Assembly (NCBI GenBank): GCA_030272155.1
Contig: CP126193.1
Coordinates: 5,766,001-5,830,000, forward strand
Direction: 5' to 3'
DNA from: Tetradesmus obliquus
Lineage: Eukaryota > Chlorophyta > Chlorophyceae > Sphaeropleales > Scenedesmaceae
DNA: 64,000 nt
A program made the position numbers and the translations under genes. Under the pieces are notes generated by a model, which saw only the letters and a program-made list of their open reading frames with translations, ran no database searches and had not been told where the DNA came from. Below are positions 1-48,725 of the stretch, in pieces (position 1 is the first letter of the stretch; every line of letters begins with the position of its first letter).

Positions 1-3000
1 GAAGCAGCCCTAAGAAGCAGCCGCTGCTGCATCTGACAGTTGTGGAGGGCAAGCGTGAGAGGAAGAAGGTGGGTGTTGGGCTTTGCTGTGTCGCTGCTGC
101 ATGCTGTACTTGTGTAGCATCATACCAACCAGCCAATGCTTTGAAGTGCATTGCCTTGTTGCTGCTTCATCCGCCATGTAAGAATGGTTAGCATGGAATG
201 GCTGTGGCTGTTGCAGTTCCCAGCTTGCTGGCTGTACTGCTGTAGTGCTGCCAGCAGCTGTTGTTCCACAACCTGCAAATGTGCACACCGCTTTTGCAAG
301 CAAACCTCTTTAACTACGCATTTGGGTGTCGATGTATTGCAGCCGGAGGTGTTCATGCCAGAGGCAAAGCAGGCGGTCACCAAGACAGCACCCAAGGAGG
401 TGCGCACCCACCCTGCTCTGCACAGCATGTGTGAGGGCTGCTGCAATTCCTATCCAGTGTTATGATGCCTGTGCTGTCCGTTGCACGTGCGCGGCTGGCG
501 CTAGGCGCACCCCAGCGCTCATGTGCTTATGTCAGTGCCAGCAGAACTATCAGCAGCAGCACTAAGACGCGGTATTCAAAGGCACCATCCATTATATGCT
601 CTCCTACAGCTGCGTGTTGCCCGCTGGTGTGCTTTTTCATAAGTTGTTGTGCTCCTGTGGGTGCTTGCAGGGTGCTGGTGAGAAGCTGGGCGACATCCCC
701 AATGTGAGCGCGCATTTTCAAACTGGTGCAGCTACAGGATAAAGCAGCGCACAGCAGCAGCAAATAGCTCCGGCAATGACGCTGCCAGCAACACCGTACC
801 ACATCTCTGGATTCGTGCTGGGCAAGCCCTGCTGCACTCTACACAGCCACAGCCCTACTCAGGCCGTGACGTCTTACTTGGGTGCTCTGGTTATCAGCAG
901 TGCTGCCTGCCTGCCTCAGCAGGGCAGCCCTTCCTGCTTCTGTTCCTGCGCTTGTTCAACAAGCCTTGCTGCTGCTGCTGCTGCTGCTGCCGCTGCTGCT
1001 GCTGCAGGTCAAGTTCAAGCTGGGCAAGATCAGCGGCAAGGATGACACCATCCGCGGCCTGCACCGCCTGCTGTTCAACCGCGACGGCACGGTGAGCACT
1101 TAGGAAAGCCTGCTGCACGTGCAATGCAGCAGGTGGTTCTACCAACTGTTGCTTCAATCAAGCACCGCCTGCTGTTCGGTCGTGACGGCGTGGTGAGCAC
1201 AGCATGCAGCACTGCAGTCTTGCAGCGACGTGCAGGGCTTCAGCCATTGTTGTTGTACACAACACCACCTGCTATTCAACCACAATGAGTACATCAGACT
1301 GGCTGCCGCACTTCCGACACTGCACTCTGCACATGCTGAACAGGGGCTGGTCCTGTGCATGTCGTTCCTTTTGTTGCCTACCTCATGTGGCTTGCATTTG
1401 ACGTGTATCTTCTGCATCAACTGCATCGAATTACTTCCGTGGTTACCTGCAGGTGCATGAGCGCAAGCGCAACATCTGGGCCTTCTCAGGACTGGTCTAT
1501 GAGGGCGACGAGGTGCGGCGGTGCTGTCACAAGCATTTCGCTCAAAGCACATGCCATCAGCAACAGCGGCTTTGATGCACTAGAGCGGCTCACATTCCTG
1601 CAGCGCAGCATATGTCTCGACACTTAGCCGGCAACAAGCAGCTGTGCAGCCAAACCTACCGCGCGCTCGCCCCTGCTGTGCACATCAAACACCAGCCAAT
1701 AAGTTGTGCCAGCCTGTTGTCGCGATAGCAACAGCAGGTGTGCCAGGCTGCACTTGCAACGATGTGCACCTGCTGCGCGCCTGTTCTGCAAAAACTGACG
1801 TGCTACACACCTCCTTCTTCTCACCCCTTTTGTTTGCTGCCATGCTGCAGGCGGCTGAGCGGGCCAAGGTGGCCGCCAAGCTGGGCGGCTGGCAGGTGGC
1901 GGCGCTGGGGGAGCTGCTGGACGCCTTTGACCTGCCAAGGCCCAGCGAGGGCAACAAGGAGCGCAAGATTGAGCGCATACTGGAGTTCCTGGAGAAGCCG
2001 CACCAGGCCTCTGACAAGGACCTGGCAGCGCTGGTGAGCGCGTGTACTGCGTGTGTGCAGCAGCAGACGTAATAGTCAGTCAAGAAGCCGTATCAAGTGG
2101 CCCTTTCACATGTACGACTGCACCAGCAAGTGGCATGTTGAAGTCTTGCCGTCACCTCACCCGTGGAGGAGAAGAAGAGGGCCGCTGCCGCCGAGAAGCG
2201 CAGCAAGGCTGCAGCAGCAGCAGCAGCAGCCACCAATACTGTAACAACTCACACATTGCTGCTTGTCGCGCCTGCAGGAGGAGAAGAAGAAGGCCGCTGC
2301 CGCCAAGAAGCGCAGCAAGGCAGCAGCAGCCACGCCCAAGGCAGGCGCCAAGCGCGGCAGGTCTGCTGGCGGCTCCGCTGCCAAGTCCTCCACCGCCAAG
2401 AAGAAGGCCAAGGGGGCTGGCGGCAAGGCCCGCAAGGCAGCTCATGAGGGCGATGAAGATGAGGAGGAAGAGCAGAGTGAGGAGCAGCAGAGTGAAGAGG
2501 AGCAGAGTGAGGAGGAGCAGGAGTCCGAGCAGGTGGGTGTTTTTTTCAAGAAGGTTGACTTGTAAGTGTTATATTTGGTGTTTGGTTAGGAGTGAGGAGG
2601 ACCAGCAGAGTGAGGAGCAGGAGTCTGAGCAGGTGGGTGGTGGGGTGCAGCGTTGAAGATGGTTGACTGTCACGGGTATGTTTTGCTGCTGCTGTTTTGC
2701 TGTTGCAATGTAGCATCCAGGATAAAGCACTGCGGCTGTGGCATCATGCCTGCTTTGCTGCTGGCTGCGCCTCACCGCGCTGTGCTCCCTGCTGCGCACC
2801 CTCGCTGCTTGCCTAAATTGTGCTTGCTGCATCCTCTTTCTGCATCTTCATCTGGCCATTGCAGGATGAAGACACACTGAAGAAGGGCAAGAAGCAAAGT
2901 ACAGCACCAAAGCGCGCCGCGCCAGCCAGCACTCACTTCTTGCTGCACTCTTCCTGCATCTGCGTTGCGTATGCAGGAGGAGGAGACGTCGACAAAGGGC

Positions 3001-3576: not shown

Positions 3577-3607
<31 letters not shown>

Positions 3608-5365: not shown

Positions 5366-5403
<38 letters not shown>

Positions 5404-16675: not shown

Positions 16676-16680
16676 TTACA
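16676..16680 (-). terminator. Putative TGTAA poly(A) signal of the PH gene
   Basis: Minus-strand TGTAA about 270 bases beyond the stop codon at 16949-16951. Confidence 0.45.
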
Positions 16681-16948: not shown

Positions 16949-18471
16949 TCAGCACAAGCTGGCTGCAGGCCTCAGCAGCGGCCCTGCGCGGCCTGCTGCC
17001 ACTGCCTCCACAAAGCCAGCCGCATCCAGCTCCCCTGCCTGCACACGGCCCACAAGCGACTCTATGGAGTGCGGCAGCCGGCTCGGCCTGCCTGAGAGTG
17101 CGAAGGGAGAAATAACAGGGCGAAATAACAGCAGCAGCGGCAGGGGCACACCAGGTGGGCATCAGCAGTTGCGAGTGTGCAGGGAGAAGCAAGAACAGCA
17201 GCAGGGGCAGGGGCAGGCCAGGTGGGTGCGGATAGGTGAAGCTGCCAGGCAATGGTGCGTAACGTGCTTGAAATGCAGCATCGGGGGCATAGAGAGGCAA
17301 TAATAGTCGTAGTTTCCGCTCCGTACGGGGCGCGGTTGCCGATGCCGATGACAAGGTATGGCTTACAAGAAGACTATTATTATTATTATCGGGGGCATAG
17401 ACGTGAAGGCACTGCATCGCCCAGCTGTGCTGCGTGACAGCCGTGACAAGCAGCACACTGTCAACAACACAGCAGGATCCTGCAACAGGTGCTGCAGCGT
17501 TACCGTGTTGGTTGGTGGCTAAAGTTCTACGGGCGTGCGTTGCAGGGTGAACGCCAGCCCTGCAGCAGACTTTTGACAAAACTGTATGGCTTTGGACCCA
17601 CGCGTAAGTATCCTCTCTTGTTTTCACACAAGCAAGCAGCACTCACCAGCGTAGCAGGGTGCCTCCCCTGCCTCCGCCGCATCCAGGATAGCACCAAAGG
17701 AGCACGTCACCTACTCATGTGAGCAAAAATGCTGCAAACATCCTTGTATCCTTGCAGGCAGCACTCACCAGCGTAGCAGGGCGCCTCGCCCGCCTCCCCG
17801 GCATCTATGGACAGCACCGCGGAGCGCACCGCAGCAGCCGCCGCAGCAGCAGCCATCGAGGCAGCCTGGCAGATCGTCTCCGCGGCTGCCGGCGACAGGA
17901 AGCACGCGGCAGAGCACCTGCAGGAGACAGTGTGCATGCAAAATGATTTGCACGAAGTGGGTAAGCTGGCAAGCATGCAACAGAGCACTTGCAGGAGCTG
18001 AGCATTTTGCATGCTCAGGAAGTGCACATGTTGATGATCCAGCATGCAGTGATGAGCTGACAGCTGTTCTATTGTGTTCACTTGAGCAAGCAGGCAACCA
18101 TCAGGTGAGCTGCTGCGCTGCTTCAGCAGATTCTTTGCACTCTGCAATCAGCTGTCATGCCGGATGCGAGCAAGGACTGCTAGCGCTGGTTGAAATCAGC
18201 CCTCTCTCTGCGTGTGATTGCACACGCAGCATGATCGCCTGCCTATTGTGCTTTGCTGCAGGGAGGTGCATTCGCAAGCCCAGGCGCATTCAATGACACA
18301 CGCATGTGCAGAAACAGCCAACACACCTGAGCGGCGTTGAGCTGCTGCTGCTGCTGCCGCCACGACCCGCAAGGTGGTAGCTGATGCTGTCACTGCTGCT
18401 CCTGGCACTGCTGCTGCTGCCGCTGCTGCTAGCACGGACTGCCGTCAGGAGCACCTGCCCATCTCTTACAA

Positions 18472-18502
<31 letters not shown>

Positions 18503-18569
18503 ATTGTCCCAGTGCCTGTCTACTGCAGCAGCTGATGAAGGCCTCCTGCGCTGCTCTGGAGCCACCGAC

Positions 18570-18625
<56 letters not shown>

Positions 18626-18851: not shown

Positions 18852-18882
<31 letters not shown>

Positions 18883-31136: not shown

Positions 31137-34100
31137 CTACTTGTGGTCTCGCAGCACATCCCACTTCCACCGCACTTCCTGCGCTGCTGCTGCTGCTGCT
31201 GCATTACCAGCCGCGGCCGCCGCACCAGCTGCTGCTGGCCGCTGCTGCTGCCCGCCTGCCGCCCCTGCAGCCGCACCCTGCTGCTGCTGGCCCTTTGCCA
31301 CCTCCTCCATTGCTGCTGCTGCAGCCGACTGCCACTGCCCCACACGCTGCTGCAGCTTAGCAGCATCATCTACATGCTGCAGCATCACCAACAGCTCTGC
31401 TAGCTGCCCTGCCTCTTCTAATGCATGCTTCGGAGGAGCCAGTGTCCCCAGATGCTCCCCTAATGCTGCCTCCTCTCCAGGACTCCCTGCCCTGATCTTG
31501 CCCTTCTTCTGCTTCCCTGCATTCTTTTTCTCATGCCGCAGAGGCTTGCGGCCGCCGATTGTGGATGCGGCCCTGCTGCTGCTCGCAATGCTGCTGCCGA
31601 ACCCCGTCATGCCAGCTCCGGTGCGCTCCGTATACACACTGAGGCCGCTGATCAAACTCACGCCAGCATCGGATGCCAGGTCATCGTTGTCTGCAGCGCC
31701 GGCTGCGCCTGCGGCTTCGGCTTCTGCTGCTGCGAGTGCTGCTTCCATGGCAATGCGGCGGTTGCGGACCTCTTTGAGGCGTGCTGTGTACTTGGCGATG
31801 CGCTCGGTTGACTCGGTTGCCTCTTCCAGCAGCACCGCAGACGCCTGGCAGCAATGCAGGTGAAAGGCCATGCAGGCAAAGATGACAGTCAGAGCATGCA
31901 AATGGCAACTATCTGGGCTCTGTGGCCTTTCCCAGCAGCACTGCAGACGCCTGGCAGCAGAGAGGACAATGGGTGCACCACAAACATCAGCCAGAAACAA
32001 CTTGGCACCTAGCAACACGGCATAGTGCATGCAGGTGGACGCTGTTGCCTCTTCCAGCAAAACCACGGACGCCTGGCAGCAGAGAGACAGAGAGGCGAGC
32101 AGTACGAGGCCGGCAGTTGGTGAAGGGACGACAGGCAGCACGGCAGGCACATCCCAAGCAACACATCCCAGGGCCAAAAACGCCACCCCACCTGCGCAGC
32201 ACCAGGCAGCACTGTGGTGTCCACCAGATCAATCTTGAAAACCGTCAAAACGTTTACGTTGAATCAGCATTGCGAATGCAAGCACCCACCTGTGCAGCGC
32301 CAAACACCACAGTGGTAATAACCAGGTCCTGCCTGCCGCCAGCGTACACCACGCGCAGCGCTTCCCGCCACTCTTTCGCAGCCACCAGCACACAGTATCA
32401 AGCCAGCGGCCCAGCATACTTTCGAATTGTGCCAAACTCACCTGCGCAGAGCGCCAGGCACTACAGTGATGTCCACCAGGTCCAGTAGCAAGCGCTCTGA
32501 CACCCAGGTGCACCAGACAGTATCACCACAGCAACACAGCACAATGTAATTCAGCTTCCAACCCACCTGTGCAGCACCAGGCACTACTGTAGTGTCAACC
32601 AGGTCCTGCCTGCCGCCAGCATACGCCACGCGCAGCGCCTCCCGCCACTCTTTCGCAGCCACCAGCGCCGCAACAGCACCATCCACGTCCTCAAGGTACT
32701 GCACCAGCAGCTGTGCTGCATCTGCGCCGCTGCCGGAGGCCTGCAGCTGCTCCGCGAGCTCCCTGGCAAGGGCCTGCTGCTGCTGCTGGCTGTGCTGCAG
32801 CCGCGCAGACAGCACCATGACCATGCGCCAGGCATTGGCGGCCCTGCAGGCAGTTGCGTTGGCAGGTGAGAAAAACACAGACAGGCAGATTACGGTCTTG
32901 ATAAGGGTTTGAAGATGTTTGAAGGTGTTTGAAAGAGGGAGCTAGTGCATGCTGCTGGCTGTGCTGCAACCGCGCTGACAGCACCATGACCATGCGCCAG
33001 GCGTTGGCGGCCCTGCGGCAACATAAATTACAACATACGTCAGCAGCTGACAACAGAAGGCAGGCAGAGTGCAGTCTTTTGACAGCATCATGACCATGCG
33101 CCAGGCATTGGCGGCCCTGCGACAACATACAGTACAACATACGTCAGCAGTTGACAACAGAAGGCAGGCAGAGTGCAGTCTTGTGACAGCACCATGACCA
33201 TGCGCCAGGCATTGGCGGCCCTGCAAAGGTTTGCATTGGCAGGAGAGAAAGACACAGACAGGCAGAATGCGGCCTTAATAAGAGTTTGTATGTGTGAATT
33301 AAAGGAAGCTGGTGCATGTTGCTGGCTGTGCTGCAGGCGTGCGCAGACAGCACCATGACCATGCGCCAGACACTGGCGGCCCTGCAATGTGCATTGGTGA
33401 TGTTTGGACAAACAACACACGTCAGCAGGTGACAACAGAAGACATGCAGAGTGTGGTCTTGTGAGCGCTGGGGGCTGCGAGCAAGCAGGAGCTGGTGCAC
33501 AGACAGCAGCGTGCAGGCTTCCGGCAGCCCTGCACTGTGTCTTGGTGGTGTATAGACACACCCACAGACAGGCGGAATCTGATCCTGTGAGCGTTGCAAG
33601 CTGCAAGCAAGCGGGATCTGATGCGCCCGCAGCAAGAAAATTGAAGTGATGCATAGGCGTGGCAACACCTAGACACACTCACTTGTACGCTCCAAGCGCC
33701 TGCTCAATCAGCCCCGCTGCGCTGTACGCGACAGCAGCTAGGTGATCATGCCTGCCATCCCAAGGCTAAACTCACTGTGGTCACATTCAAGCTCACTCAC
33801 TTGTATGCCCCAAGTGCGTGCTCAGTCAGCCCCGCTGCGCTGTACGCGACAGCAGCGTCCTCCGCCTTGCGGCCATCCAGCAGCGAGTCGCCATACGCTG
33901 CCAGCACAGCCAACAGCCGCTGCTGCTGCTGCTGCTGCTGCTGCTGTGCACTACCGCCAGCAGCAGCCTCACCCTGCTGCTGCTGCTGCTGCTGCTGTGT
34001 GAGGGCCAGCAGCTGCCTCAGTAGGCCCCTCTCTTTCGCCAGCTTCAGTGCAGCATCAAAGTGCGCTGGACCCGCTGCCACCAAATGCGCCAGTGCCTTG

Positions 34101-37100
34101 TCATATCGCCCGAGCGACAGATCAATCGCATGGCAGCGCAGCGAAACATCGGACTGGCTGCCGAATGCAGTCAGCTCAGATAGATACTCTCCTGGATCTT
34201 TCTGAGAGTGTCCAACTACCATGAATGCTAGTGACAGATCATACAGGCCCAATGCAGTGCGGTACAGTTGGTCCACATCAACATACAGCAGCAGGTGCTT
34301 CAGCGCAGCGTCTGCTGCAGTACTAAGCTGTGCAGGGCAGGCGGCCTCCTGCGGGGTGACTGCTACTGCTGCTGCAACAGCTGCTGCAGCTGAGTCGGCT
34401 GCTGCTGGGGCTGCTGCAGCTGCTGCTGTTGTGCTGCTGCTGACGGAGGCCTCTTTGACTTCTCTGATGGCAATCAGAGCAGCTTCTAAGGAGGGCGGGT
34501 CACTCCTGCATACATAGGGTGAGCAAGTGTGAGCACATGTGCAGGTAGCTTGCGTCCCAAGTGTATGCACAGATGCTTATGTGATGGCCAGCGCATGCGT
34601 GCTCAAATGCAACCAAGAAGCACTCAGCAGCAGCAGCAGCAACTAGCCTGCTGCTCATCAATCAAATCTAGACTTTCAAGGCACACAACGGCAAGTGTAG
34701 CCCAGGCACTGCCATGCGCTTCCTATGTGGCCTGCGCAGCATCCGCAGTGAATCTTTGCAGGGCCAGTCGGAACGTGCAGCAAAACTCAAATACCTTGCG
34801 ACTCGCGCTGCCCACTCACTTGGCATAGCTGATGGCCACTGTCTTCAGGTGGCCCTGCAGGTAGCGCCCCGGCAGCTGCAGCACAGCCTGCCGCACAGCA
34901 GCACACACCGCAGACACTTTGTTGCTGGCATCTACTGCAGCCGCTGCACTGTCAGTGTCAGCTGCCTGACTTGCTGCTAGTGATGCCAGCCCTGCAGCAG
35001 CTGCCGCCGGCTGCTGCTGCTGCTGCTGCTGCTGCCAGCCAAGCATCTGGTGCAGGTCGCCATACACCGCCCCCTGCTGCAGGACGCTGCCAGGCTGCAG
35101 CGCAAACAGCAGATCACAAAGGTCCGAGGAGTCCCTAACCGCCGCCACGAACTGCGCCGCATTCTGCACAACGCGTGGCCACGCATAGTCAACCAGCAGG
35201 TTAAAATCCACGCGGTGTGTGACTGCCAGCTGCCATGCTTTGCTGTGCTGCTGCTGCTCCAGTGCGTCGCAGATCGCTGCGAGGACTAAAAGGCGAGGCG
35301 AGACACCCTCCAGGTTGCCACGTTGCATCTGCAGCACCACGCCGACGTCACCCCAAGGCGCGGCTAGCAGCATGGCACCTGCGGGAAGGAGAGCAGGGAG
35401 GAGATGTTTGGGCAGCAGACAGCAGGGGCAGTGAGGTGAGAAGGGTTGCCGCGCGCAATCAATCAATTACACGCTTTTCCAGCAAGAGAAACCAAGAGAA
35501 ACCAAGGGAGGCTGCTTGGCAGTCCCAAACCACCAGAGGTTGCCGCGCTGCACCTGCACAATCGCAGCAAATTGTGAATGTAGCATGTGAAGCCAGAGTG
35601 CAGGCAGACGAGTGAACAGGCTGAGAGATGAGGCACGTGCCAGGGAAGCTCCATGCACACCCAACAAGCAGACATGCACTGAACCAGCGCACATGGGTGG
35701 AGTGTTGCAGGCAGCTTCCCTCCCCAACAATCACTTTCCAATCGTTCAGCAGTTTTTGTTATGCATCCAATCCTCCTCCTCCTCAGCATGCAGGCCTCTC
35801 ACCTGGCTCCACCACGCGCACGTGTGGGTGTTGCACTACAAGCAGTGACCCCGCTTTTAGCCAGTCAACAGGTTGAATTGCAGTGCTACTTTGCAGATGT
35901 TTCTTGGCCCAATCCCTCACCTGGCTCAACCGCGCGTACGTGAGGGTCGCGCGCAGCAGCAGCAGCGCCGCCGGGGCGCATGGCCATGGCCATTGCTGCA
36001 CGCAGGTCTCCCGGGTACTCACTGGGCCTGTATGTGACTGCTGCTGTCGACTCGTCAGGCTGCAGCACAAACAAGCACAGCCAGCAGCAGTCAGTCGCTG
36101 GCCAGATCGCCACGTTGCATGCGCTTGACTGCTGGGCGTAACTTGGGCAGCAGGCGATGAGTCAGTGTGCTCGGGACATTCAAGAACACGATGCACATGC
36201 AACAAGCATAAGGAGCTGCAGTCGCTAAGCACCTGACACCTCGCTCACACATGCAGACCAAACCGCCCCAAGGACCCTCACCAGCGAATGCACGTAGCTC
36301 GGCAGTTGCCCCACCATCACCACAAACAGCAGCGCCTGCCGCGTGACATACAGCAGCGCGGGCCCGCCCGGGCCGCCCCCCCGCAGCACAAAGCTCGTCA
36401 CATCATTCGCCAGTAGCTTAGCACCCCAGTACAGCGCCCCGTGCTGCGTCAAGCCCAGCACAGGCGCTGCACTGGCCACAGCGGCAGCACGCTGGCTGCT
36501 GCTGCTGCTGCCGCTGGGTCTATTCACTGCAGTGCCAGATCCTGCTGCTGTGTTGAGGCGAGCAGATCCTGCTGCTGCAGTTCCAGCACCAGCCGGCGCA
36601 TTAGGCAGCACCTTGAGGGTCCTGCAGGGCGCCGCAAGCGCAGCCTGCCCCTGCAGCTGCAGCAGCTGCCCGGCTGTGCTGTAATACACTGCAGGGCCGC
36701 CTTGCAGCTGCAGCAGCGCACCGCCAGCTGGATGGGGTGCTGCTGCAATGACGGCTGCCCCTGCGTAGCTCACACGTGTGACTGCTGTCTGCGGCTCTGC
36801 ACCTGCCTGATAACAACCTGCTGCTGCTGCTGCTGTTGTTATGGAGAGCTCGGCTGGAATCTGAACAGACACTTCGATTAGTACCGTTCCTTCACCTGTT
36901 TCCAAACCTTCCTCAGCAGGGTAAGGAGCTGCCAGCAGCAGCAGACTATTCCTGCCCGTCCACACAAGCCCTAACACCAGCCTGCCTTCTGCCAGCGGAA
37001 TAGCCAGCTCCGCTGCTGCTGCTGGAGGCTTCTGCGGCAGCAGCCGCTGCTGCTGCTGCTGGTGCGCCTGCTGCTGCTGACCGGGCCTGCTGGTGGGGGC

Positions 37101-37397
37101 GCTGCTCGTGCTGCTGCCATCAAGAGGGTTCCACGGCCCAGCAGGCATCGACAGGAAGCCATTCCCTGCTACTGTACTGGCAGTTGTACTGCCAGTTGTA
37201 CTGCCTGTAGCGTCAGCTGCTGGGCAGTAGCCCAGGGGCAGTAGGTAGCCGCCAGGGCCCCCCAGTGCTGCCTGATCCTCCAATGTTTCCTCCCACAGAT
37301 CACTCTCTACTGCTCTTAGGAACACCAGCGAGCCATCTGACAGCAGTACAGCCAGCACCTCACACAACCCCTGCTGCACCACACCCACCCCACCCTG

Positions 37398-37428
<31 letters not shown>

Positions 37429-38790
37429 ATGGTGTCGGCTGATGCATCCAGGTCTGCTGCTACGTCGCCGTCAAGCCATGCCACTGCATTGGCTGGCCGA
37501 GGCAGCACTGCACGCACCGCAGCCATGGGTGGGGGCACCTGGCCGTGCCTGCAGCAGCAGCAGCAGCAGCAATGAGAAGCCGGGCAACACTTCTGCATGT
37601 CAGTGTGTTGGCACAGAGACAGCCTTGACTGCTGTCAACGCCTGTAGCAGCATGGCACAATGGCAATACATAAAAGGTGCAAGCAATTGCCGGGATATCC
37701 TTGCCCAGAGGAGATGTCTCCCAGACAGCACGTGATGTTGCAGCTGCTGACAACACATCACAGGCACCACCTTCCCATACACATCTCTCATCCGCTGCTG
37801 TCAGCCGATCTGCTGCTAGCCCACTGTCTCACCTCAGCGGCGTGATGAGCAGCGTGTGCCCATCGATAACAGCCGCAGTGCCCCTGGCACTAACTGCCAC
37901 ATCCCAGCCCACATCCATCACGCTGTAGCTGCCACTGCCTGCCACTACATGCAGCCTGCCAGGCAGCGCCTCATCCCAGGCCACAGATAAACAGCCGGCT
38001 GCATGCGGCAGGCTGGTCAGCTGCTCGTGCTTGAGGTACCAGTGCCAGTTGCTGCGGTGCCACAGCTGCAAGCAGAAGAAAAGAGGCAGCAGGGCAGCAG
38101 TTACTTGCATGTGACAAGTGAAAACAGGTGGTAAAAGCAGCCGGCTGCATCCGGCAGGCTGGCTAGCGTCTTGTGCTTGAGGTACCAGTGCCAGTTGCTG
38201 CGGTGCCACAGCTGCAGGGGGCAAAAAAGAGGCAGCAGGGCAGCATTTGGTTGCATGTGACATGTGGAAAAGTTGGTGGTGGTTGCAGTTGGATGCATGC
38301 GGCAGGCTGGCTAGCGTCTTGTGCTTGAGGTACCAGTGCCAGTTGCTGCGGTGCCACAGCTGCAAAACAAGGGAGCAGCAGAGGCAGCAGGACAGTAAGC
38401 AAGCAGCAGCATGTAGCATGTGGTAGGGTGGTGGGTGGGTGGTGAGGAGGCAGATGCGTTTAAGAAGTAAGAGACATGCACATGTGCAAAAGTGCAACGC
38501 AGCTTGCTGTGTATGGCTGCGCACTGTACGCTTGAGCAAAGAACAGCAGCTGCGGCAGATGCATACCGTTCAACCTTGCAATTTCATTCACTGGTGCAAG
38601 CAGACTGATCTTAGGAGTCTCCTGCACAGTTCTGCTCTCACCTGCACATGCCACTCATGTGTGTCACTGCTGCTGCTGTCTGCCCCTGCTGCTGCACCAG
38701 CTGCCCTCTGCCGCCCTGCCCCTGCTGGTGCCAGCACCACTGCCAGCAGCTCCGAATCACTACTCCAAGACAGCGCATGGATGACCAACC

Positions 38791-38827
<37 letters not shown>

Positions 38828-40408
38828 AGCCTGGCTGTAAGTAGGCACATCAAAGCCGCCATGCTGCAGGCCGTTGCGCTCATACAGCAGCACATGCTGC
38901 AGCCAGCTGCCACCGGCAGCATCTACTACACTGCTTGCCGCCTGCTGCTGCTGCTGCTGCAGAGGGTTCGAGCCTCCACCTGCTGCTGCTGCTGCTGCTG
39001 CTGCCTCTACAGCTGGCCAGGAGGGTACGCCTGGCTGCTGGTGTGGCGCTGCTTTCAGTGGCTGGCCCCTGGAGTCAAAGCCAGCTGTAGCAGCTGCCTG
39101 CTGCAGGTCCTGCGCTACTGCTGCTGCAGCATACAGGTGGCGGCTGTTGGGCTGCCAGGCAATGGGTGCTGCCAGGCCCGCTGCTGCTGCTGCAGTAGCA
39201 TGCAGCTGGCAGTCATCCCTGTCCCAAATGTGCAGCAGGCGGCATGCGCCGCTGTTGCTGCTGCTGCTGCTGCTGCTGGGTGTTGTCCAGAGTGTGTTTG
39301 TGGCAAAGTATTTGCTGTCGCCGCGCCAAGTGAGGGTGGCTGACAGCAGCAACGGGCTGGCGCCTGCGTCGTCACCTGCTGCTGCTGCTGCTGCAGCTGC
39401 TGTTGGGCTGGGTACTGTTACCTCTGCTAGCACATCCCATTCCTGCGGCACGATAGACAGCAGCAGCGCAGTGTGCTACTTTGTGTGTCTGCACCGCACG
39501 ATTTTAGCGCATCCAAACAAACATGCAGCATGAAGCTAACCGGCACAGCACCCACTGCACGCACAACTCCAAAATCACTGTTGCTTCCCTGTACTTCCTA
39601 AACCCTCACCTTGTTCATCATCAGTAAACCCTGGTTGTACCCCAGCAGCACCAGCAGCTCCCCATCAGGGCTCCAGCCAGCAGCAGCCACTCCGCCAGAC
39701 ACCACCCCCACCTCCTCAACTGATCTGCTGGCAGTGTGCAGCAGCAGCAGCTCGCCGCTGCTGCAGGCAATGAAGACTGCATCCAGCTCTAGCACAAAGC
39801 TGAAGGATACAACGAGTTCGGCTGGCGTGCTGCTGCTGCTGCTGCTGCCGTCAGGGCTGAACAGAGGGGGCGGCTCCTCAAAGAGAGGCGTGCTCCAGAG
39901 CAGCTGCGCAGTCAGCAGCAGACAGTGAGGTATGTTTTATTGGAGCTTGTGGCAGCAGACAGTGCCAGGTGGGTGGAGAGTTCCAGGTGTGTGCTGTGCA
40001 TCTCAGTGCAACGACGCAGAACCGGCTTGCAGGTGCACAACTGCAAACTGTCTGGCGAGATATGCTATCAACGCTTGCAACCATTGAACATGATGCAGCA
40101 GGTGCTGTGGCCTCTGCGGCTGTGCCGGCAGCAGGTGGCATCAGCATGCTGGCCACGGGTTAGCCGCTGCAGTTGTGCTGTAACTTGACCACCTGGCTAC
40201 TGTAGATCGTTACAAACGGCTTTATAACAGGTTGTCACACCTTTTTGCCGCCTTGCGGTAGGCACAGCACCAGGGCTGAGCGCGTGACAGCATACAGCAG
40301 CCCTTCTGTACTGTCCAGGCAGAAGTGGCTTACGGGGCCGTCGTCAGCAGCTGCGGGCCCTAGGTCCAAGTCAACGACGGATACAGATTGTAACGTAAGG
40401 TTCTTCAT
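31137..40408 (-). CDS. ELP1: Elongator complex protein 1 (IKAP/Elp1)
   Basis: Elp1 is the scaffold of the Elongator complex, which modifies wobble uridine in tRNA in the cytoplasm. The start at 40408 gives M-K-N-L-T-L, matching the family M-R-N-L-K-L. WD40 propeller pieces follow: S-W/G-W-S-P-D near 39680, L-T-W-R-G-D-S-K-Y-F-A near 39340, L-L-Y-E-R-N-G-L-Q-H-G near 38880, N-W-H-W-Y-L-K near 38050 and V-A-V-I-D-G near 37870. The helical C-terminal half includes R-G-N-L-E-x-V-x-P-R near 35320, D-V-D-Q-L-Y near 34280, Q-K-D-P-x-E-Y-L near 34190, and the exons 32843-32567 and 31844-31137. A basic patch (K-K-N-A-G-K-Q-K-K-G-K) near 31510 fits the tRNA-binding region. Long Gln/Ala/Ser insertions enlarge it. 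Central exon limits are approximate. Six or so border-copy arrays lie in its introns. Confidence 0.92.
31835..32085 (-). repeat. Three-copy acceptor array before the last ELP1 exon
   Basis: Copies of the last-exon start (A-S-A-V-L-L-E-E-A-T) with a ccag acceptor begin at 32072, 31950 and 31844 (real); spacing 122 and 106. Confidence 0.8.
32185..32650 (-). repeat. Four-copy donor array in ELP1
   Basis: The exon end D-x-V-D-T-T-V-V-P-G-A-A-Q followed by gtgggt or gtgagt has its real donor after 32567 and copies with donors after 32442, 32290 and 32192 (spacing 125, 152, 98). The third copy spans back through an R-E-A-L-R-V-x-Y-A-G-G-R-Q block, so it is about 100 bases long. Confidence 0.8.
32820..33400 (-). 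repeat. Five-copy acceptor array in ELP1
   Basis: Copies of the exon start (A-A-N-A-W-R-M-V-M-V-L-S) behind a tgcag or cgcag acceptor begin at 33381, 33220, 33116, 33012 and 32843 (real). Spacing is 161, 104, 104 and 169. The copy nearest the real exon differs only at synonymous sites over the aligned part (AAC for AAT, TCA for TCT, TTG for CTG). The more distant copies carry some amino-acid changes. Traces of a sixth copy lie near 33530. Confidence 0.85.
33680..33860 (-). repeat. Two-copy donor array in ELP1
   Basis: The exon end A-V-A-Y-S-A-A-G-L...A-Y-K with a gtgagtg donor is real after 33801 and copied with a donor after 33683, 118 bases downstream. Confidence 0.8.
38025..38365 (-). repeat. 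Three-copy acceptor array in ELP1
   Basis: Three copies of the exon start L-W-H-R-S-N-W-H-W-Y-L-K-H behind a gcag acceptor begin at 38359, 38211 and 38065 (real); spacing 148 and 146. The first 39 coding bases are the same in all three. The two upstream copies share a further, slightly diverged stretch ending in L-A-S-L-P. Confidence 0.85.
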
Positions 40409-40736: not shown

Positions 40737-43015
40737 ATGCCGATCGTCGGTGTAAATCGTGATAGACTGTTTGAGGCTCTTGGACGCAAATACAGTGAGT
40801 CACGTGGCAGGCTGCAGGCGCAGGCTGGGCTGTCACTGCAGCACACTGCTGCTCACCAGCACTGTTATCCTGCTGTACCTGCCACTGCAGCTGATGAGGA
40901 ATTTGATCAGCTCTGCTTCGAGTATGGGATTGAGCTGGATGATGTGGTGAGTGGCTGAGCAGGCCTAGCCTGCTCTGGCGCAGCAGCAAACAACCGCAAC
41001 AGCTGTGCAGCTGCAGCACATTACACGGCGCAGCAAACTGCTTGTGCTGTGAATGATGCATGGCAGCGGCAGCAGCAGTTATTGCTGTGAATGATGAAGT
41101 CAGCATTGTGCAGACTGCATCTGATTATTGAAGTGGGCTTGTGAGCAGAGAGTTGGGCATGTTTCAAACAGCTCAGCTGATGGTTAGCTGTCTAGCCTGC
41201 AGCCAATTTGCATCTTGCAGGACATTCGATTGCAGCGGTACTGCAAAGCAACACGTACATGGATGCAGCTGAAGCAGCTCAGACCTGCTATGAACATAAC
41301 AGGCAGACAGCGCAGCAGCTTAGCTTGCAGCCGCAGTAGGCTGCCACCAGCCATTGTGACGCAGCAACATGTGGCTGGCAGGCGCAGGCATTGTGCACCT
41401 GGATCCAGCAGTAGCAGCACCTGCAGGCACAGCATGACACATGCCCAAATCCCCCACTGCACCTGCTGCTCCCTGCTCAAGAACTGTGTTCAACTGTTCA
41501 CAACTGGCGCTGTTCCAGACCTGCTCAGACTGCTTTCCAGCTGCTGTTCACACTGCCGTTCAAACTGCATTTCATTTGGGTTCAAACCGATTTGAAACCA
41601 ATGTGCTGCAGACCTCGGAGCGCGAAATGATCCGCAAGGAGCTGTCCAAGGATGACGCGTCAGCACTGAGTGAGGCCAGCGAGGATGTTATTTACAAGAT
41701 TGACATCCCAGCCAACAGGTGCGCAGTTATGACAGCATGTAACATCATTGTCTGCTTGCTTGCAGTCGGAAGTATGGACTCAACCTGATAGCAAGTGGCA
41801 TGCAGCAGCATCAGAAGCAGCAGAGTTGAATGCGTGCACAGGGGCAACTGTTGCACTGCATCCCCTGCAGGTGCTGCAAGCACAGTCACTGCAAGCCCTC
41901 CCGGCGGCAGCGCCCAGCCTTTGGACCTAGCCATGTTATGTTGCAATCTTCCATGTTACTGACATGTTACTGACTGTCATGTAACACAGGTATGACATGC
42001 TGTGCCTAGAGGGCATCGCGCGCGCGCTCAACATCTTCAAGGGGCGCCTGGAGGCGCCGCAGTACAGGCTGGCAGACATGAAGGGTGAGGCACAGGGCTG
42101 GCAGCAGCAGCAGCGGCGGCAGTGATGAGGCAGCGGCAGCAGCAGCTGCGGTGCAGGCTCGTGCACATGAAGGGTGCGGCAGGGGCGGCAGCGGCAGCAG
42201 CAGCAGCAGCGGCAGTGATGAGGCACAGGGCTGGCCGCAGCAGCAGCAGCGGCAGTGATGAGGCAGCGGCAGCAGCAGCTGTGGTACAGGCTGGCGCACA
42301 TGTAGGGTGAGGCACAGGGCTGGCAGCAGCAGCAGCAGCGGTAGCAACAGCAGCAGCCGTAGTACAGGCTGGCCGACATGAAGGGTGAGGCACAGGGCTG
42401 GCAGCAGCAGCAGCAGCAGCAGCGGTAGCAACAGCAGCAGTCGTAGTACAGGCTGGCCGACATGAAAGGTGAGGCACAGGGCTGGCAGCAGCAGCGGCAG
42501 CAGCAACAGCCTCAGCGGCTGCAGCAGCAGCAGCTATGGTACAGGCCGCTGACATTGAGGGAGCGGCGGCAGCAGCAGCAAGCAGCAACAGCGGTAGAGG
42601 CTGGCAGACATGACGGGTGAGGGAGTGGCAGCAGCAGCAGCAGCAGCAATCAGGGAGCATATCAGGCACCAGTACAGGCTGTCAGGCATGCGTATGAAAT
42701 TGTGCGGCAGCAGCAGCAGCACAAGCAGCGATCAGCGACCACATCTGGCAGCAGTACAGGCTTGCACACATACAGGGTGAGGCCGCCGGTGTTGCCGCCG
42801 CATTAGCAGCAGCACCAGTGGAGCAGCACACCTAGCAGCATTACATTTGTAACAGCAATGAAGCGGCGGCCTGGCGCCAGCAGCAACGGCAGCAGCAGCA
42901 GCAGCAGCAGCAGCGAGGCAGCACATCTAGCTGAGCAGCAGCGATGAGGCAGCACAGCTTGGCAGCAGCACAGCTGTAGCAGCGGTTGCAGGCACAACAG
43001 CTTCAACAGATATGT

Positions 43016-43066
<51 letters not shown>

Positions 43067-45838
43067 CAGTAGAGGCGAGCACAGTGCAGCTCAAGGAGCA
43101 ACAGGAGGCAGCAGGATGTGCAGTGACTCAGCGCGCCGCCCTGAGCAGCTGCTGCACAATGCATGGGTTGGGCTATGTTTGTCAGGACTTCCTGCATGCA
43201 CTGGACATGAGCAAGTGCTGTACAGCCATGTTCAACACAGCGTGCCTATCCCTGCTGCTGCTGCCGCTGCTGCTGCTGCTGCTGCTGCTGCTGCCGCAGG
43301 CAAGCCGCTGCTGCAGCTGGTGGTCAAGCCTGAGACGGCGCTCATCAGGCCCTACGTGGTGGCGGCGGTGCTGCGGGGCGTTACCTTTGACGCCACGCGC
43401 TACACCAGCTTCATCGACCTGCAGGTGCGTGAGGTTACTGGAGCTGGAGGTGCTGGTAATGATGCGTAATGCTGAGCTTAACACACTGTGTCATGCCACG
43501 CGCTACACCAGCTTCATCGACCTGCAGGTTTGTGGGATACAACGCAACATCAGTCAGTGATGCCGCAAATGCAACTGCCTCCAGGTGTTACGGACTTTGT
43601 GCAGCAGCAGTAGCATCGCCTTGGGACAAGTTGTCAGCTGGGCTGGCGTGCTCTGCTCGTTCTTCAGCACCCACACAGCTGCAACCGACGCATCTGCGGT
43701 TTGTGCGGGTGTAATGCTCGTGACAAAGCAAACTGATTTAGACTTCTGCTGATGTTACTCTGCTGTCACACACGCTGTTGCCCTGCAGGACAAGCTGCAC
43801 CAGAACCTGTGCCGCCAGCGCAGCCTGGTTGCCATCGGCACGCACGACCTGGCCAAGTGCCGCGGGCCCTTCAGCTATGAGGCGCTGCCCCCGGCTGACA
43901 TCAGCTTCGTGCCGCTGAAGCAGACACAGAAGTTCAGGGCAGACGAGCTCATGGAGGTGGGTGGGGGTGCTGAGGGTGTTTGATTTAGGGTTTTTAAGGG
44001 GCAGGGTGTGGATCACACACCGCGTGCATCGGCTTACGAGTCGGTGAAGCAGACACAGAAGTTCAGGGCAGACGAGCTCATGGAGGTGGGTGGGGTTGAG
44101 GACTCTGGGTTTTGGGGGTTATGGTTTGGGGTTCTTAGGGTAGGTGGCACAGACCAATGACATCAGCTTCGTGCCGCTGAAGCAGACGCAGAAGTTCAGG
44201 GCAGACGAGCTCATGGAGGTGGGTGGTCTGTTTTGACACACTGTACTGCCCGTCATTGCGTACTGCGTTGACATTTGTGTACCGCCTGTCAGCAAAATGT
44301 ATACTGCCTGAGAACAACAATTTGACGAGCTCATGAGGTGGGTGGCGCGTCTAGCTGCTCTCAACCCAGCACACCACGGGCGGTAGTGACACGCATTGTA
44401 GTGCCTGTCTCCATGTTTTGTGCTGCATGTCACCACAATCGTAGGGCTGGATTGTCTCGGTCTTGTTCTCCTACCTTGTATGTATGTACAGCATGTGCAC
44501 ATGAGCCAGACATTGTCATGGATTGTGCTGCCTGAGAACAACGTGCTGTACTGCCTGCCACGGTACCTTTGTACCGCCTGCAGCACTACTTGGCCAATGA
44601 CCAGAGCTGTGCCCCTCTTAAGGGAAGACTCGTCCATGTTTTCTGTGTTACAACCTATAAACTGTACTGCCTGCCACCGGACTTACATACTGCCTGCAGC
44701 ACTACCTGGCCAACGACCAGAAGCTGAAGAAGTTTGTGCCCCTCACAAAGTACTGCCTGTCATGACGTCTTGTACTGCCTGTCCCACATCATGTACTGCC
44801 TGCAGCACTACTTGGCCAACGACCAGAAGCTGAAGAAGTTTGTGCCGCTCATCAAGGACAGCCTCGTGTACCCTTGTTGTACTGCCTGCCACCGCTCTTC
44901 CGTAATGCCTGCAGCAGTACCTGGCCAACAACCAGAAGCTAATGAACTTTGTGCCTCTCTTTAGGAAAGCTCGGTCCACCCTCTTTGTACTGCCTGAAAA
45001 CCACATACTGTACTGCCTGCCACCTCACTTTTTTTACCGCCTGCAGCACTACCTGGCAAATGACCAGAAGCTCAAGAAGTTTGTGCCGCTCATCAAGGAC
45101 AGCCTCGTGTACCCAGCCATCTACGATGCAGACCGCACGCTGCTGTCGCTGCCTCCCATCATCAACGGCGCCGCGACGGCGGTGAGTCAGCCGCTGAGCT
45201 GTTGCAGCAAGCTGTAAGCTGTGGCCTTGCGCCTCACTAGCAGCAGCAGCGACTTCAGGTCCTCAACCAGATTACGCATGCCCAAATTGTCTGCAAACAG
45301 TCACCGGCAGCTGCTATGCGACAGGGCCTGAACTTGCTGACAATATCCGCCGAACGCAACCGCTGAACTCACTCGCTAGACGCAACCGCTCCACTCAACC
45401 GCACAACTCATCTGCTTCAACCGCCGCAGATTTCGCTGGAGACGCGCGACGTGTTCATCGAGTGCACAGCAACCGACCTGACCAAGGCCAAGGTGGTGCT
45501 CAACACGGTGTGCGCCATGTTTGCGGAGTACTGCGCGCAGCCCTACGTGGTGGAGCCGGTGGAGGTCATCGACAGCTTCGGGGAGAGCCACGGTGGGTAC
45601 ATTCATACATTAAGCTGCTTGTTATGCTTCTTGGCAGCTGCACGAGCAGTGAGTATGTTATTACTGTGCAGTTTGCAGTGCAAAGGAGGCAGGCTGGCAT
45701 GGCGCTGCATGCATGGTTTGGGGGGGGGGGGGGGGGGGGAGTGTGCTAGCCAGCATGCAGCTGGCTTGGCATGTTGGTGTGGTGTTGCCACGTACTCCCA
45801 CAGTACGTGCTCCTTGGCTTACAGCCAGTACCGCTGCC

Positions 45839-45869
<31 letters not shown>

Positions 45870-48725
45870 CTGCCGCTACTTGCTGCGCCAACAGTGTACC
45901 CTGACCTAGCGCCCCGGCAGATAGACGTGCCGCTCGACTACATCAACAGCAGGCTGGGCCTGCAGCTGGAGCCATCCACAGTAGCCAAGCTGCTGCGTAG
46001 CATGCAGCTACAGGTGGAGCTCAGCAGCGCAGCAGCAGCAGCAGCAGCAGCAGACGGCAGCAGCTTCAGCGGGCCCAGCCTGCTGGTCAGCGTGCCACCA
46101 ACGCGCAGCGACATCCTGCATGCGTGCGACGTCATGGAGGATGTGGCGATTGCATACGGCTACAACAACCTTAGCAAGCAGGTGGGAGGCTGCGCCGGCT
46201 TCATTTGAATATGAGATTCCTGGTGGTCCTGGTTGCACGCACGTGATAAGATGGCCAGATATGTTGCAGACTGCTGGTACCAATGCTGGCGTTTGCAGCA
46301 CTTGTGGGCAAACGGATGTTGCAGCGTCAGCAAGCTGCCCGCGGCGCAGCCACCTCGCTTCAACTGCTGTGCACGATGAGACCGCAGGCCACTGATGCTG
46401 CCTGATGGCTTCCTTGCTGCTTCTGCTTCTGCTGCTTCTGCTGCTGCTGCTTCTGCTGCTGCTGCTGCTGCTGCTGCAGATCCCCACCACCGTCACGCAG
46501 GGGCGTGAGCTGCCGCTGAACCAGCTCACGGAGCTGCTGCGGCAGGAGGTGGCGCTGGCGGGCTACACAGAGATCCTCACATGGTGAGCAGCGGGCGGCA
46601 GCGCACCAGCAGCCCACCAGCAGCCCACCACAGCCGATCACAGCCGATCACAGCCGTTCACAGCCCACCACAGCCGCCATTGTCAGCGCTCATTGCAGCT
46701 GTGTAAATGTCACTGCAAGACAAGCTGCATGCATGCGCATTGCATCCTGCTGGGTCACCCATTTGTCCATCTCATGAGCTGCACAACCAGCAGCTGTGCT
46801 GCTTGATCCTACCACTCGCTACCTTCCTAGACTCAACCCTGTCACCGCGTGCTGCAGGGCGCTCTGCTCCCGCGCGGAGAACTTCGATGCGATGCGCTGC
46901 CCCGAGTCCGCACCCGGCTCTGGCGCCGTAGCAATCGGCAACCCCCAGACCGCTGAGTTCGAGGTCTGCCGCACCACGCTGCTGCCCAGCGCGCTCAAAA
47001 CCATCGCGGCCAACAAGCGCGAGCCGCTGCCGCTGCGGCTCTTCGAGCTCAGTGATGTGGTGCTGCTGGATGCCGAGCGGGATGTGGGCGCAAGGAATGA
47101 GCGGCGGCTGGTGGCGGTGCACTGTGGCAAGGCTAGCGAGTTTGAAGTTATTCACGGGCTGCTGGACCGCGTGATGCAGGTACTCAACGTGCCGCGGGAA
47201 GGTGAGCGCATTCTGCAAAGGTTTTTGCAAGTTCCTGCAAGTGCATGCGCATCCATGCGAGGTGCTGATAGATGGGTCGGATTGGTACAATGTTGCAGGC
47301 AGCAGCGACAGCAGCGGAAGGATGTTGACTGGTGCATGGGGTGTGCTTTCGTTCAACCAAGCCACGCGCAGTTGAGGGACCGGCCAAAAGGGTGGTGCCT
47401 CAGCTGCTGCCGCGCAATGGCACCGCCGGAGGTCAGGTTAGGTTGGGATGGGTTTCGTGTGTGGCACAATCAACTTGTGGCTGAGTGATGTGGTGCTGCT
47501 GGATGCGGAGAGGGATGTGGGCGCAAGGAATGAGCGGCGGCTGGTGGCTGTGCACTGCGGCAAGGCCAGCGAGTTTGAGGTCATCCACGGGCTGCTGGAC
47601 CGCGTGATGCAGGTGCTCAACGTGCCGCGGGAAGGTGAGCGGCATGGGCTTGATCTCGGATCCTTCTACGATTTTATGTTTCGTTCTTCAAGCGCTGCGC
47701 CAAGGCTGGCAGGTGATGGGGTGGTGCGCAAGCTGCTAGTCTGCGTGACACTGCTCCTCTCTCTTGCAGCGTGCGCTTGTAGCCTGACCCTACCTCACCG
47801 TGCCTTCTTGTTTTTGTTATCAACCCCTGCAGGCAGCAACCCTGAGCTGGAAGCCAAGCTGGGTGGCAGCTACAGCTTTGTGCACCAACATGACCTTCTG
47901 CTCAACGTATCTGTTGCATCTGACCATGGTCCGTCTGTTGTGAAACGTCTGCAGGCAGCAACCCCGAGCTAGAGGCCAAGCTGGGTGGTGGCTACAGCTC
48001 TGTGCACCACCATGACCCTGTGCTCAACCATCTGTTGCATCTGACCATGGTCTGTCTGTTGTCAAACGCATGCAGGCAGCAACCCTGAGCTTGAGGCCAA
48101 GCTGGGTGGCGGCTACAGCTGGGCGCCCAGCGAGCACGCCAGCTTCTTCCCCGGCCGCCAGGCCACCATCAGCGCGTGCGGGCAGCAGGTGCGCTACACA
48201 TGTGTGGCACTGGTGCTTGTATCTGCATGTGCTGTGTTTGCTGCTTCCCGGGCCGCCAGGCCACCATCAGCGCGCGCGGGCAGCAGGTGAGAACTGCATT
48301 GTGTGGCTGCGCATGCATGCACAGCGCTGCTGATAAAGCGTGCACTACTGCTGTGCACAGCTGCTGCACAGCGCGTGCTGAGGAGTGGACTGGGTTGGTG
48401 CCAGGCAGGAACTGTGTGTGGCAGCACAATCTCTTGGCTACTGCACATTGCTGGTATGGCAGCTCAAGCACCGTTCCTTGGCCGAGCCGCGGAAAACTTA
48501 TTGCTTCAATACTCACAGGCAACATTTCATACTGTCCAACGTTATGCTGCTGCTGCTGCTGCTGCGCAGGTGGGCACCATCGGCATCGTGCACCCTGAGG
48601 TGCTGGCGGCCTTTGACATCGAGCACCCGGTGTCAGCGCTGGAGCTGAACATCCAGCCCTTTGTGTTTGACACGGCACTCAAGTCGCTCATGCACGAGCT
48701 GCACGGCTGGAACCTGGTGCACTGA
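40737..48725 (+). CDS. FARSB: Cytosolic phenylalanyl-tRNA synthetase beta subunit
   Basis: Beta subunit of the alpha2beta2 enzyme that charges tRNA-Phe in the cytosol. Thirteen exons with consistent phases: 40737-40794, 40891-40946, 41612-41718, 41990-42084, 43300-43424, 43789-43956, 45047-45181, 45430-45592, 45895-46181, 46480-46583, 46858-47201, 48076-48188, 48570-48725; 636 residues against about 590 in animals. Family landmarks in order: M-P-x-V-x-V-x-R-D start, D-E-E-F-D-x-L-C-F-E, [23 protein letters not shown]-x-P-P-I-I-N-G, F-I-E-C-T-x-T-D, the B5 segment P-P-T-R-x-D-I-x-H-A-C-D, A-Y-G-Y-N-N, L-N-x-L-T-E-L-L-R, N-P-x-T-A-E-F, H-G-L-L-D-R and F-F-P-G-R. An Ala-run inserts near 46030. 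No organelle presequence is seen. Introns contain at least six exon-border arrays. Residue 48177-48179 is Cys where relatives have Arg. Confidence 0.95.
42062..42785 (+). repeat. Nine-copy donor array in PheRS beta intron
   Basis: The exon ending at 42084 (Y-R-L-A-D-M-K then ggtgagg) is followed by about eight degenerate copies of its last 20-25 bases plus the donor, near 42150, 42286, 42363, 42447, 42540, 42595, 42672 and 42755. They are separated by CAG/CGG-rich filler. Copies near 42363 and 42447 keep the coding meaning and the gtgagg donor; others have lost one or both. Confidence 0.85.
43015..43065 (+). repeat. Long CAG microsatellite in PheRS intron
   Basis: About sixteen to seventeen uninterrupted CAG triplets lie in the intron between 42084 and 43300, next to the donor array. 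The tract is intronic in the model used here. Confidence 0.85.
43385..43530 (+). repeat. Two-copy donor array in PheRS beta
   Basis: The exon end [11 protein letters not shown] has its real donor after 43424. It is repeated without change in these 33 bases with a second donor after 43527, 103 bases downstream. The intron bases after the donor differ (gtgcgt against gtttgt). Confidence 0.85.
43897..44345 (+). repeat. Three- to four-copy donor array in PheRS beta
   Basis: The exon end [13 protein letters not shown] with gtgggt is real after 43956 and copied with donors after 44085 and 44218; a shortened copy ends near 44337. Spacing is 129, 133 and about 119. The third copy extends back through D-I-S-F-V-P-L and differs from the real exon at one synonymous site. 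Confidence 0.85.
44570..45115 (+). repeat. Five-copy acceptor array in PheRS beta
   Basis: Five copies of a gcctgcag-type acceptor and the exon start [14 protein letters not shown] begin at 44584, 44700, 44806, 44915 and 45047 (real); spacing 116, 106, 109 and 132. The copy at 44806 keeps 22 codons with only synonymous differences. The copies at 44584 and 44915 are eroded. Confidence 0.88.
45720..45739 (+). repeat. Poly-G tract of about 20 bases
   Basis: An uninterrupted G run lies in the intron between 45592 and 45895. It could form G-quadruplex structures. Its exact length may be a sequencing or assembly estimate. Confidence 0.8.
47040..47645 (+). repeat. Long (155-base) donor-side exon copy in PheRS beta
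   Basis: The last 53 or so codons of the exon ending at 47201 ([10 protein letters not shown] ... N-V-P-R-E) are repeated at about 47482-47636, again with a gtgagc donor. I count ten base differences in the coding part, all of them synonymous, so the encoded residues are the same. I see no in-phase acceptor directly before the copy. Confidence 0.88.
47825..48125 (+). repeat. Three-copy acceptor array in PheRS beta
   Basis: Copies of a tgcag acceptor plus exon start [11 protein letters not shown] begin at 47834, 47955 and 48076 (real), exactly 121 bases apart. Differences are mostly synonymous; one copy changes a Gly to Ser. Confidence 0.88.
48150..48290 (+). repeat. Two-copy donor array at the PheRS penultimate exon
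   Basis: The exon end G-R-Q-A-T-I-S-A-x-G-Q-Q is real after 48188 and copied with a donor after 48286, 98 bases on. The primary exon encodes Cys at x (48177-48179) while the copy encodes Arg (48275-48277). Confidence 0.85.

Follow-up and report, generated by a model that had tools for sequence, protein, structure and literature searches.

Polarised tandem copies of splice junctions in introns of Tetradesmus obliquus and the preservation of their exon-derived part

Some introns of Tetradesmus obliquus contain direct copies of their own splice junctions: the end of an exon, with its donor site, recurs downstream of that exon, and the start of an exon, with its acceptor site, recurs upstream of it. 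A preliminary description had reported such arrays in a stretch of 64,000 nt (referred to as the window), and the present analysis indicates that the feature is real and is found elsewhere in the genome, though patchily. It is mostly explained by tandem duplication at positions where duplication is tolerated. In addition, the junction block within each copy is preserved relative to the remainder of the repeat unit, a new element that was absent from the preliminary description and that is surprising, as the sequence seems to have no use. We consider recurrent re-templating of the copies by the working exon, i.e. gene conversion, to be the most likely explanation, and assign it a probability of about one half.

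Junction copies in five genes

The DNA examined comprised the window, which is located on contig 3 of the 104.66 Mb, 17-contig T. obliquus genome, and 23 stretches of 10 kb from the same genome. Gene models for the sampled stretches were obtained with a simple trained hidden-Markov gene finder, which predicted 320 introns across the DNA examined; the gene finder recovers the exons of PheRS-beta and miscalls some copies as exons, which constitutes an annotation trap. A further stretch (L010), which is AT-richer (GC 0.49) and contains many near-identical, satellite-like repeats, was excluded from all gene-model work. In the window, published proteins served to map the exon models of PheRS-beta, ELP1 and FAS1, the borders of DEK and the PH-domain gene are gene finder predictions combined with a domain match, and all models other than the first three come from this home-made predictor. 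When joined from its exons, PheRS-beta yields 533 residues matched to the beta chain of 3l4g (E 7e-159), which we take to be the human protein. The same exons are recovered with the published ELP1 and FAS1 proteins of this assembly, with the PheRS protein of another T. obliquus assembly and with the PheRS and ELP1 proteins of Scenedesmus NREL 46B-D3, and the proteins read across the junctions without added residues. Pfam matches back the names DEK (DEK_C), PH and fasciclin, although the PH match (24.2 bits) is just below the curated cut-off of 25.1; among the 25 matches listed in a search for a published DEK relative that could verify the DEK exons, none named T. obliquus or Scenedesmus. A published model on the minus strand (OEZ86_003144, window 28095-40408) fuses ELP1 and the neighbouring fasciclin gene FAS1 into one protein and appears to omit some ELP1 exons called by the gene finder; the fusion looks like a mis-annotation.

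After low-complexity queries and repeats were filtered out, as in the border and self-comparison tests below, copies were detected in the adjacent intron at 19 of the 84 exon borders of these five genes (42 introns), as compared to 9 of 2704 when the same borders were searched against introns of the other genes. The 19 arrays (10 donor-side and 9 acceptor-side; 3 in DEK, 2 in PH, 1 in FAS1, 6 in ELP1 and 7 in PheRS-beta) contain one to seven extra copies at spacings of 78-169 bp, mostly ~120 bp and once 433 bp, so that the earlier figures of about 17 arrays, repeated 2 to 9 times every 100-150 bases, were close.

DEK, on the plus strand, contains one donor-side copy at 1162-1189 in intron 1092-1452 (spacing 101 bp, GT kept), one acceptor-side copy at 2166-2218 in intron 2034-2277 (112 bp, AG lost) and four acceptor-side copies at 2865-3224 in intron 2533-3298 (97-113 bp). 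A further likely donor-side copy, matching the exon that ends at 2532, was seen by eye in low-complexity sequence at 2591-2632 and is not counted because the filter removed it. On the minus strand, the PH-domain gene contains one donor-side copy at 17647-17695 in intron 17092-17768 (122 bp) and an acceptor-side copy at 22760-22791 in intron 22673-23234 (121 bp), and FAS1 contains an acceptor-side copy at 28658-28728 in intron 28590-29153 (139 bp). The ELP1 arrays, also on the minus strand, comprise two acceptor-side copies at 31918-32072 (106 and 122 bp) and three donor-side copies at 32192-32483 (98-154 bp; GT lost in the copy at 32450-32483) in intron 31845-32566; four acceptor-side copies at 32950-33381 (104-169 bp) and a donor-side copy at 33683-33738 (118 bp) in intron 32844-33800; a weak donor-side copy, 72% identical, at 35803-35853 in intron 35380-35920 (118 bp); and two acceptor-side copies at 38135-38359 in intron 38066-38641 (146 and 148 bp). 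PheRS-beta, on the plus strand, contains a CAG-rich array of seven donor-side copies at 42133-42776 in intron 42085-43299 (78-148 bp; one without GT), a donor-side copy at 43495-43527 in intron 43425-43788 (103 bp) whose exon part is 33/33 identical beside a spacer of background similarity, and, in intron 43957-45043, two donor-side copies at 44027-44218 (129 and 133 bp) and four acceptor-side copies at 44581-44981 (106-132 bp). Its intron 47202-48075 holds a long donor-side copy of exon 8 at 47485-47634 (433 bp) and two acceptor-side copies at 47833-47999 (121 and 122 bp), and intron 48189-48569 a donor-side copy at 48240-48286 (98 bp). In this test the start of PheRS-beta exon 4 was placed 3 nt early, and its copies are printed with ‘TG’ where TGCAG stands. 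Two other features of the locus were observed: a spacer motif, TGTACTGCCTG, recurs in the PheRS acceptor array (window 44541-45047), with similar motifs near 30602 and 37173 in unrelated places, and a run of 20 G is present within a PheRS intron at 45720-45739.

The suggestion that the process enlarges introns holds for the five genes, in which median length is 576 for introns with arrays (n = 15) and 304 for those without (n = 27; p = 9e-5), but not for the automatic intron set, in which the predictor fragments arrays by calling copies exons and no length difference was seen (364 vs 285, p = 0.43; 237.5 vs 284.5 in the sample stretches alone). The copies had also been described as in-phase sites, a claim that the spacings do not support: the 48 spacings are distributed 11:17:20 over remainders 0:1:2 modulo 3 (p = 0.27), which rules out in-frame alternative sites. 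As the spacings are in general no multiple of 3, a frameshift would be the usual result of splicing at a copy.

Polarity and spread through the genome

The polarity of the copies was evaluated over all predicted introns with 36-nt exon queries. The last 36 nt of an exon recur in the downstream intron in 13 of 275 cases and the first 36 nt recur in the upstream intron in 20 of 276, as compared to 1/198 and 1/214 for wrong-end controls and 3/199 and 1/211 for mid-exon controls (exon ends vs the pooled 6/822, Fisher p = 1e-8). Reverse-complemented exon ends gave no match (0/275 and 0/276), against 33 direct matches. Intron segments recur less often (2/235 near the donor, 10/229 near the acceptor and 2/144 in the middle); exon ends exceed the middle and near-donor segments (4/379, p = 1e-4) and also all intron segments including those upstream of the acceptor (14/608, p = 0.002), a segment that acceptor arrays often include. 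When flanks were inspected singly, the second splice site was absent in 29 of the 33 best copies, the other four having a candidate site; 12 of 13 donor-side copies are without a preceding AG and 17 of 20 acceptor-side copies without a following GT. Both the polarity and the general absence of the partner site stated in the preliminary description are thus borne out, and the latter rules out cassette exons.

When 316 introns, each extended by up to 150 nt into the neighbouring exons, were compared with themselves, 114 direct and 8 inverted repeats were detected. Among the direct repeats, 17 are of donor type (15 introns), 37 of acceptor type (21 introns), 28 exon-to-exon (21 introns), often representing copies miscalled as exons, and 28 intron-only (14 introns). 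The border lies within most donor- and acceptor-type blocks. Junction repeats are therefore commoner than, but not exclusive of, repeats inside introns.

A repeat touching an exon is present in 52 of 320 introns and, outside the window, in 30 of 256, a set that includes genuine exon-exon repeats (stretch L008 has that kind alone). The 30 introns are confined to 8 of the 23 sampled stretches, and 15 have none (dispersion chi-square 68, 23 df); the array-bearing stretches are spread over five contigs, the window's contig among them. Junction-linked duplication is accordingly shared by genes of unrelated function, as had been claimed, and the view that it is a property of this genome stands with the reservation that its distribution is patchy. 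The densest stretch of the sample (L026, 10 kb) carries a mitochondrial carrier gene with exon-touching repeats in 9 of 17 predicted introns, and at ~1000-1600 of stretch L025 a short exon start (ERIAELEESAMGEKPWHL) of an Mpp10-family gene is present in about four near-identical copies, which the gene finder interprets as consecutive exons.

Preservation of the junction block and its possible causes

The exon-derived part of the unit is kept, whereas the intron-derived spacer has decayed. Between working junction and copy, the exon part is 0.875 identical in 12 donor pairs and 0.888 identical in 19 acceptor pairs, as compared to 0.532 and 0.631 for the spacers and 0.50 for shuffled spacers; the repeat-rich array W42307 was left out of this analysis and of those of spacer similarity, codon differences, splice scores and per-position mismatch. 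Identity drops at the border, exon-side mismatch being 5-17% per 10-nt bin within 60 nt and 5-8% in the border bin itself. The contrast recurs in pairs of which both members are intronic copies (0.83 vs 0.60, n = 18, p = 2e-5), and exon identity is uncorrelated with spacer identity (Spearman -0.09, n = 31). Spacer similarity, tested singly for 29 of the 33 border hits, is significant (p<0.05) in 13 of 29 arrays. When 28 of these were split by hand at spacer score into low and high classes, the flanks of the low class mismatched below background (acceptor 60/120 vs 0.69, p = 2e-5; donor 99/160 vs 0.735, p = 0.001), and its exon parts were, if anything, less diverged (60/717 vs 70/590 mismatches, p = 0.04). 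Duplication of a whole unit would make exon part and spacer equally old, so exon divergence is expected to be at least about half the spacer rate.

We propose that the arrays arose in two steps. In the first, for which support is good, genes undergo local tandem duplication in units of ~120 bp; a duplication inside an exon would disrupt the protein and then be lost, whereas one that straddles a junction would be harmless because the outermost working junction remains usable and the second becomes intronic. A straddled donor would leave an exon end plus donor downstream of the exon, and a straddled acceptor an acceptor plus exon start upstream, so that tandem duplication and selection together would produce the polarity, the direct orientation, the inclusion of the border and the missing partner splice site. 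The polarity is thus explicable without special machinery, and the residual spacer homology and the flanks below background are as a tandem origin predicts. In the second step, which we infer, the junction block (~25-150 bp of exon plus the splice-site bases) would be repeatedly re-templated by the working exon, by short-tract gene conversion or re-copying; the exon, cleaned by selection, would act as a permanent template, while the spacer would drift towards saturation. The arrays visible today would then be duplications with a refreshed exon part, some of them enlarged further through unequal exchange between copies, and the copies themselves probably do nothing.

Several observations bear on the second step. 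Differences between copies are codon-periodic (0.105, 0.113 and 0.239 at positions 1, 2 and 3; p = 2e-9), a pattern that would not be expected of two freely drifting intronic copies and that looks as if each copy had tracked the coding template at a different time. The near-neutral differences between exon and copy and the unexceptional splice dinucleotides fit refreshed copies better than strong selection, although the nonsynonymous fraction (0.517) is below the 0.595 expected for a neutral copy beside a constrained exon (p = 0.014), which counts against re-templating. Comparison with NREL 46B-D3 at the protein level gives a mixed picture: the PheRS copy at 48240-48286 encodes R where the working exon encodes C, and the ELP1 copy at 33683-33738 encodes Q where the working exon encodes H. 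In both cases NREL 46B-D3 has the residue of the copy, so these two copies were not re-templated recently, which also weighs against re-templating. Other copies carry T. obliquus residues missing from NREL 46B-D3 (F in exon 4, E in exon 8) and so, on this comparison, arose or were refreshed after the lineages split. Further points against the second step are that no conversion event was directly observed, that conversion tracts of 25-50 bp are short for ordinary homologous recombination, and that intron-only repeats make up 28 of the 114 direct blocks.

The main rival to re-templating is that the copied junctions would be functional, i.e. that they would act as alternative or regulatory splice sites (for example in unproductive splicing) whose block and splice core are kept by purifying selection; judged from the sequence, this is unlikely. 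The splice cores are indeed kept: donor positions +1 to +5 mismatch at 14/60 (0.233) as compared to 32/60 (0.53) at +6 to +10 (p = 0.001), and the five acceptor splice-site bases at 15/95 (0.158) as compared to 48/95 (0.51) at intron bases 6-10 (p = 5e-7), where two random introns mismatch at 0.73 (donor) and 0.66 (acceptor). The five bases mismatch no more than they do between two working sites (0.233 vs 0.247; 0.158 vs 0.150). However, 43 of 49 copies (0.88) retain GT/AG, a proportion that does not significantly exceed the dinucleotide identity of the exon parts (0.80, p = 0.21), and the mean site scores of the copies, 2.3 (donor) and 4.8 (acceptor), are below the 7.2 and 6.3 of their own working sites. 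Spacings that are no multiples of 3 provide no in-frame alternatives in general, the nonsynonymous fraction is overall far from strong coding constraint, and every junction is present once in the published models (ELP1 of this assembly, PheRS of the other T. obliquus assembly, and NREL 46B-D3).

Two PheRS copies with synonymous changes only argue for function. One exon-4 acceptor-side copy (44806) has four changes in 22 codons, and the exon-8 copy has 10 differences in 51 codons, a 10:0 ratio that also opposes re-templating (p about 1e-4 for a neutral re-templated copy, before multiple testing). The open frame of the exon-8 copy extends upstream past an in-frame ATG at 47448 (window 47442-47634), and the copy could be an alternative first exon. 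No other genomic source for it was found in this genome; of the 13 matches in a PheRS protein search, 12 lie at the window locus, and the remaining one is distant (54% identity) and lies elsewhere. An inter-haplotype origin of the synonymous-only copies would not explain intron flanks that mismatch at ~50% beside exon blocks at ~8-12%.

We regard it as quite unlikely that exon-border fragments were copied alone at birth, by template switching or by an RNA-templated event that stopped at the splice site, such that the spacers were never homologous. This would fit several pairs (in L012, L029 and W43425) with 97-100% exon identity beside background-level spacers, and the 10 of 17 donor-type repeats in which the matching block stops within 11 nt of the border. 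It is weakened by leftover spacer homology even in the low class and by a spacing distribution that overlaps that of full tandem arrays; moreover, exon-interior fragments, which would be equally harmless in introns, are rarely copied, and inverted exon-end copies are absent (0/551). This absence, together with the inclusion of the border, also disfavours templated insertion by end joining.

It is very doubtful that the preservation is only apparent, arising in ordinary neutral tandem duplications from the constrained exon and from exon-based detection. A constrained exon does slow the divergence between exon and copy, and a simple calculation that leaves out ascertainment arrives at a spacer identity of 0.590, close to the observed mean of 0.592 (combined p = 0.11), when the indel rate is set to an extreme 0.6 per substitution; lower rates of 0.3 (0.644, p = 0.002) and 0.1 (0.701, p = 2e-7) fail. 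A neutral forward simulation with the same detection, which modeled a constrained exon, a neutral copy and indels at assumed rates for donor-side duplications only, yielded spacer identities of 0.72-0.78 and a Spearman correlation of about +0.6. Spacer identity of 0.60 or less occurred in 15-32% of simulated cases, as compared to 83% (donor) and 58% (acceptor) of observed ones, and exon identity of at least 0.9 with a spacer of 0.6 or less is expected in 1-5% of cases and was observed in ~25%. The equal contrast in copy-copy pairs also speaks against neutral decay. The argument from preservation is nevertheless of moderate strength, given the small sample and the narrower gap obtained with very high indel rates.

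An assembly artefact (mis-joined reads, haplotypes placed end to end, or polishing) is barely credible: haplotype mixing is conceivable, one report describing NREL 46B-D3 as likely diploid with separated haplotypes (PMC7955037), but most copies in the five genes differ from the working exon (71-100% identical), some by indels, arrays span less than ~1 kb and occur on five contigs, and the distribution of derived and ancestral residues over the copies follows an evolutionary pattern. As to how arrays grew, sequential duplication at the border, with the outer copies oldest, conflicts with the nearest copy being the most diverged at L026 7462 and in PheRS exon 4.

Significance and comparison with known systems

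The arrays form a natural series that runs from full-length junction duplications to ones with little beyond the exon block, and two 17-piece T. obliquus assemblies are listed in PMC12571836, one of them of 104.70 Mb. With the series and the two assemblies it becomes testable how often a junction duplication gives rise to alternative splicing or to a new intron, and whether selection on exons protects duplicated copies via gene conversion. More tentatively, and with the odds against it, constrained exons may act as templates that keep rewriting decoy junction copies in adjacent introns. Such ‘exon-anchored’ concerted evolution would maintain intact, unused half-exons from which new exons, new introns and alternative splicing could develop; coding selection may already act on one copy at least, that of PheRS exon 8.

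No description of polarised junction arrays in introns was found among the literature titles and abstract openings listed, in a search that covered mostly papers outside closed journals. Several known systems share part of the pattern. Intron creation by a duplicated AGGT likewise involves tandem duplication around splice signals within genes and may leave the mRNA unchanged, but there the AGGT supplies both sites of a new intron, whereas in T. obliquus the copied junctions and the intron that receives the copies were both already present, nearly every copy has one site, and the pattern requires no new intron. Introner elements, in which one sequence is inserted in many genes, differ from the arrays described here, as cross-gene matches of exon borders are rare (9/2704) as compared to matches in their own introns (19/84). 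In tandem exon duplication, which gives rise to mutually exclusive exons, exon sequence is repeated in the intron with both splice sites in each copy; the T. obliquus copies are mostly half-exons without the second site, at spacings that are no multiples of three. Under concerted evolution by gene conversion, new variants are shared with the template, and in the protein comparison two copies share residues absent from NREL 46B-D3 and two do not. Internal gene duplication, reportedly described by Gao & Lynch in 2009 for within-gene duplications covering exon-intron borders, resembles the 19 arrays in that the duplicated segment lies within one gene and spans such a border; the T. obliquus arrays differ in being polarised partial-exon arrays located in introns and clustered in some genes, in which the exon block is better preserved than the spacer. 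Finally, intronic minisatellites form multi-copy arrays with units of ~100-150 bp that change by unequal exchange, and some T. obliquus arrays are comparable in units and arrangement (e.g. 32976-33224 and 47828-48120), but the T. obliquus units have a splice junction as their anchor, and the exon-derived part persists as the remainder decays.
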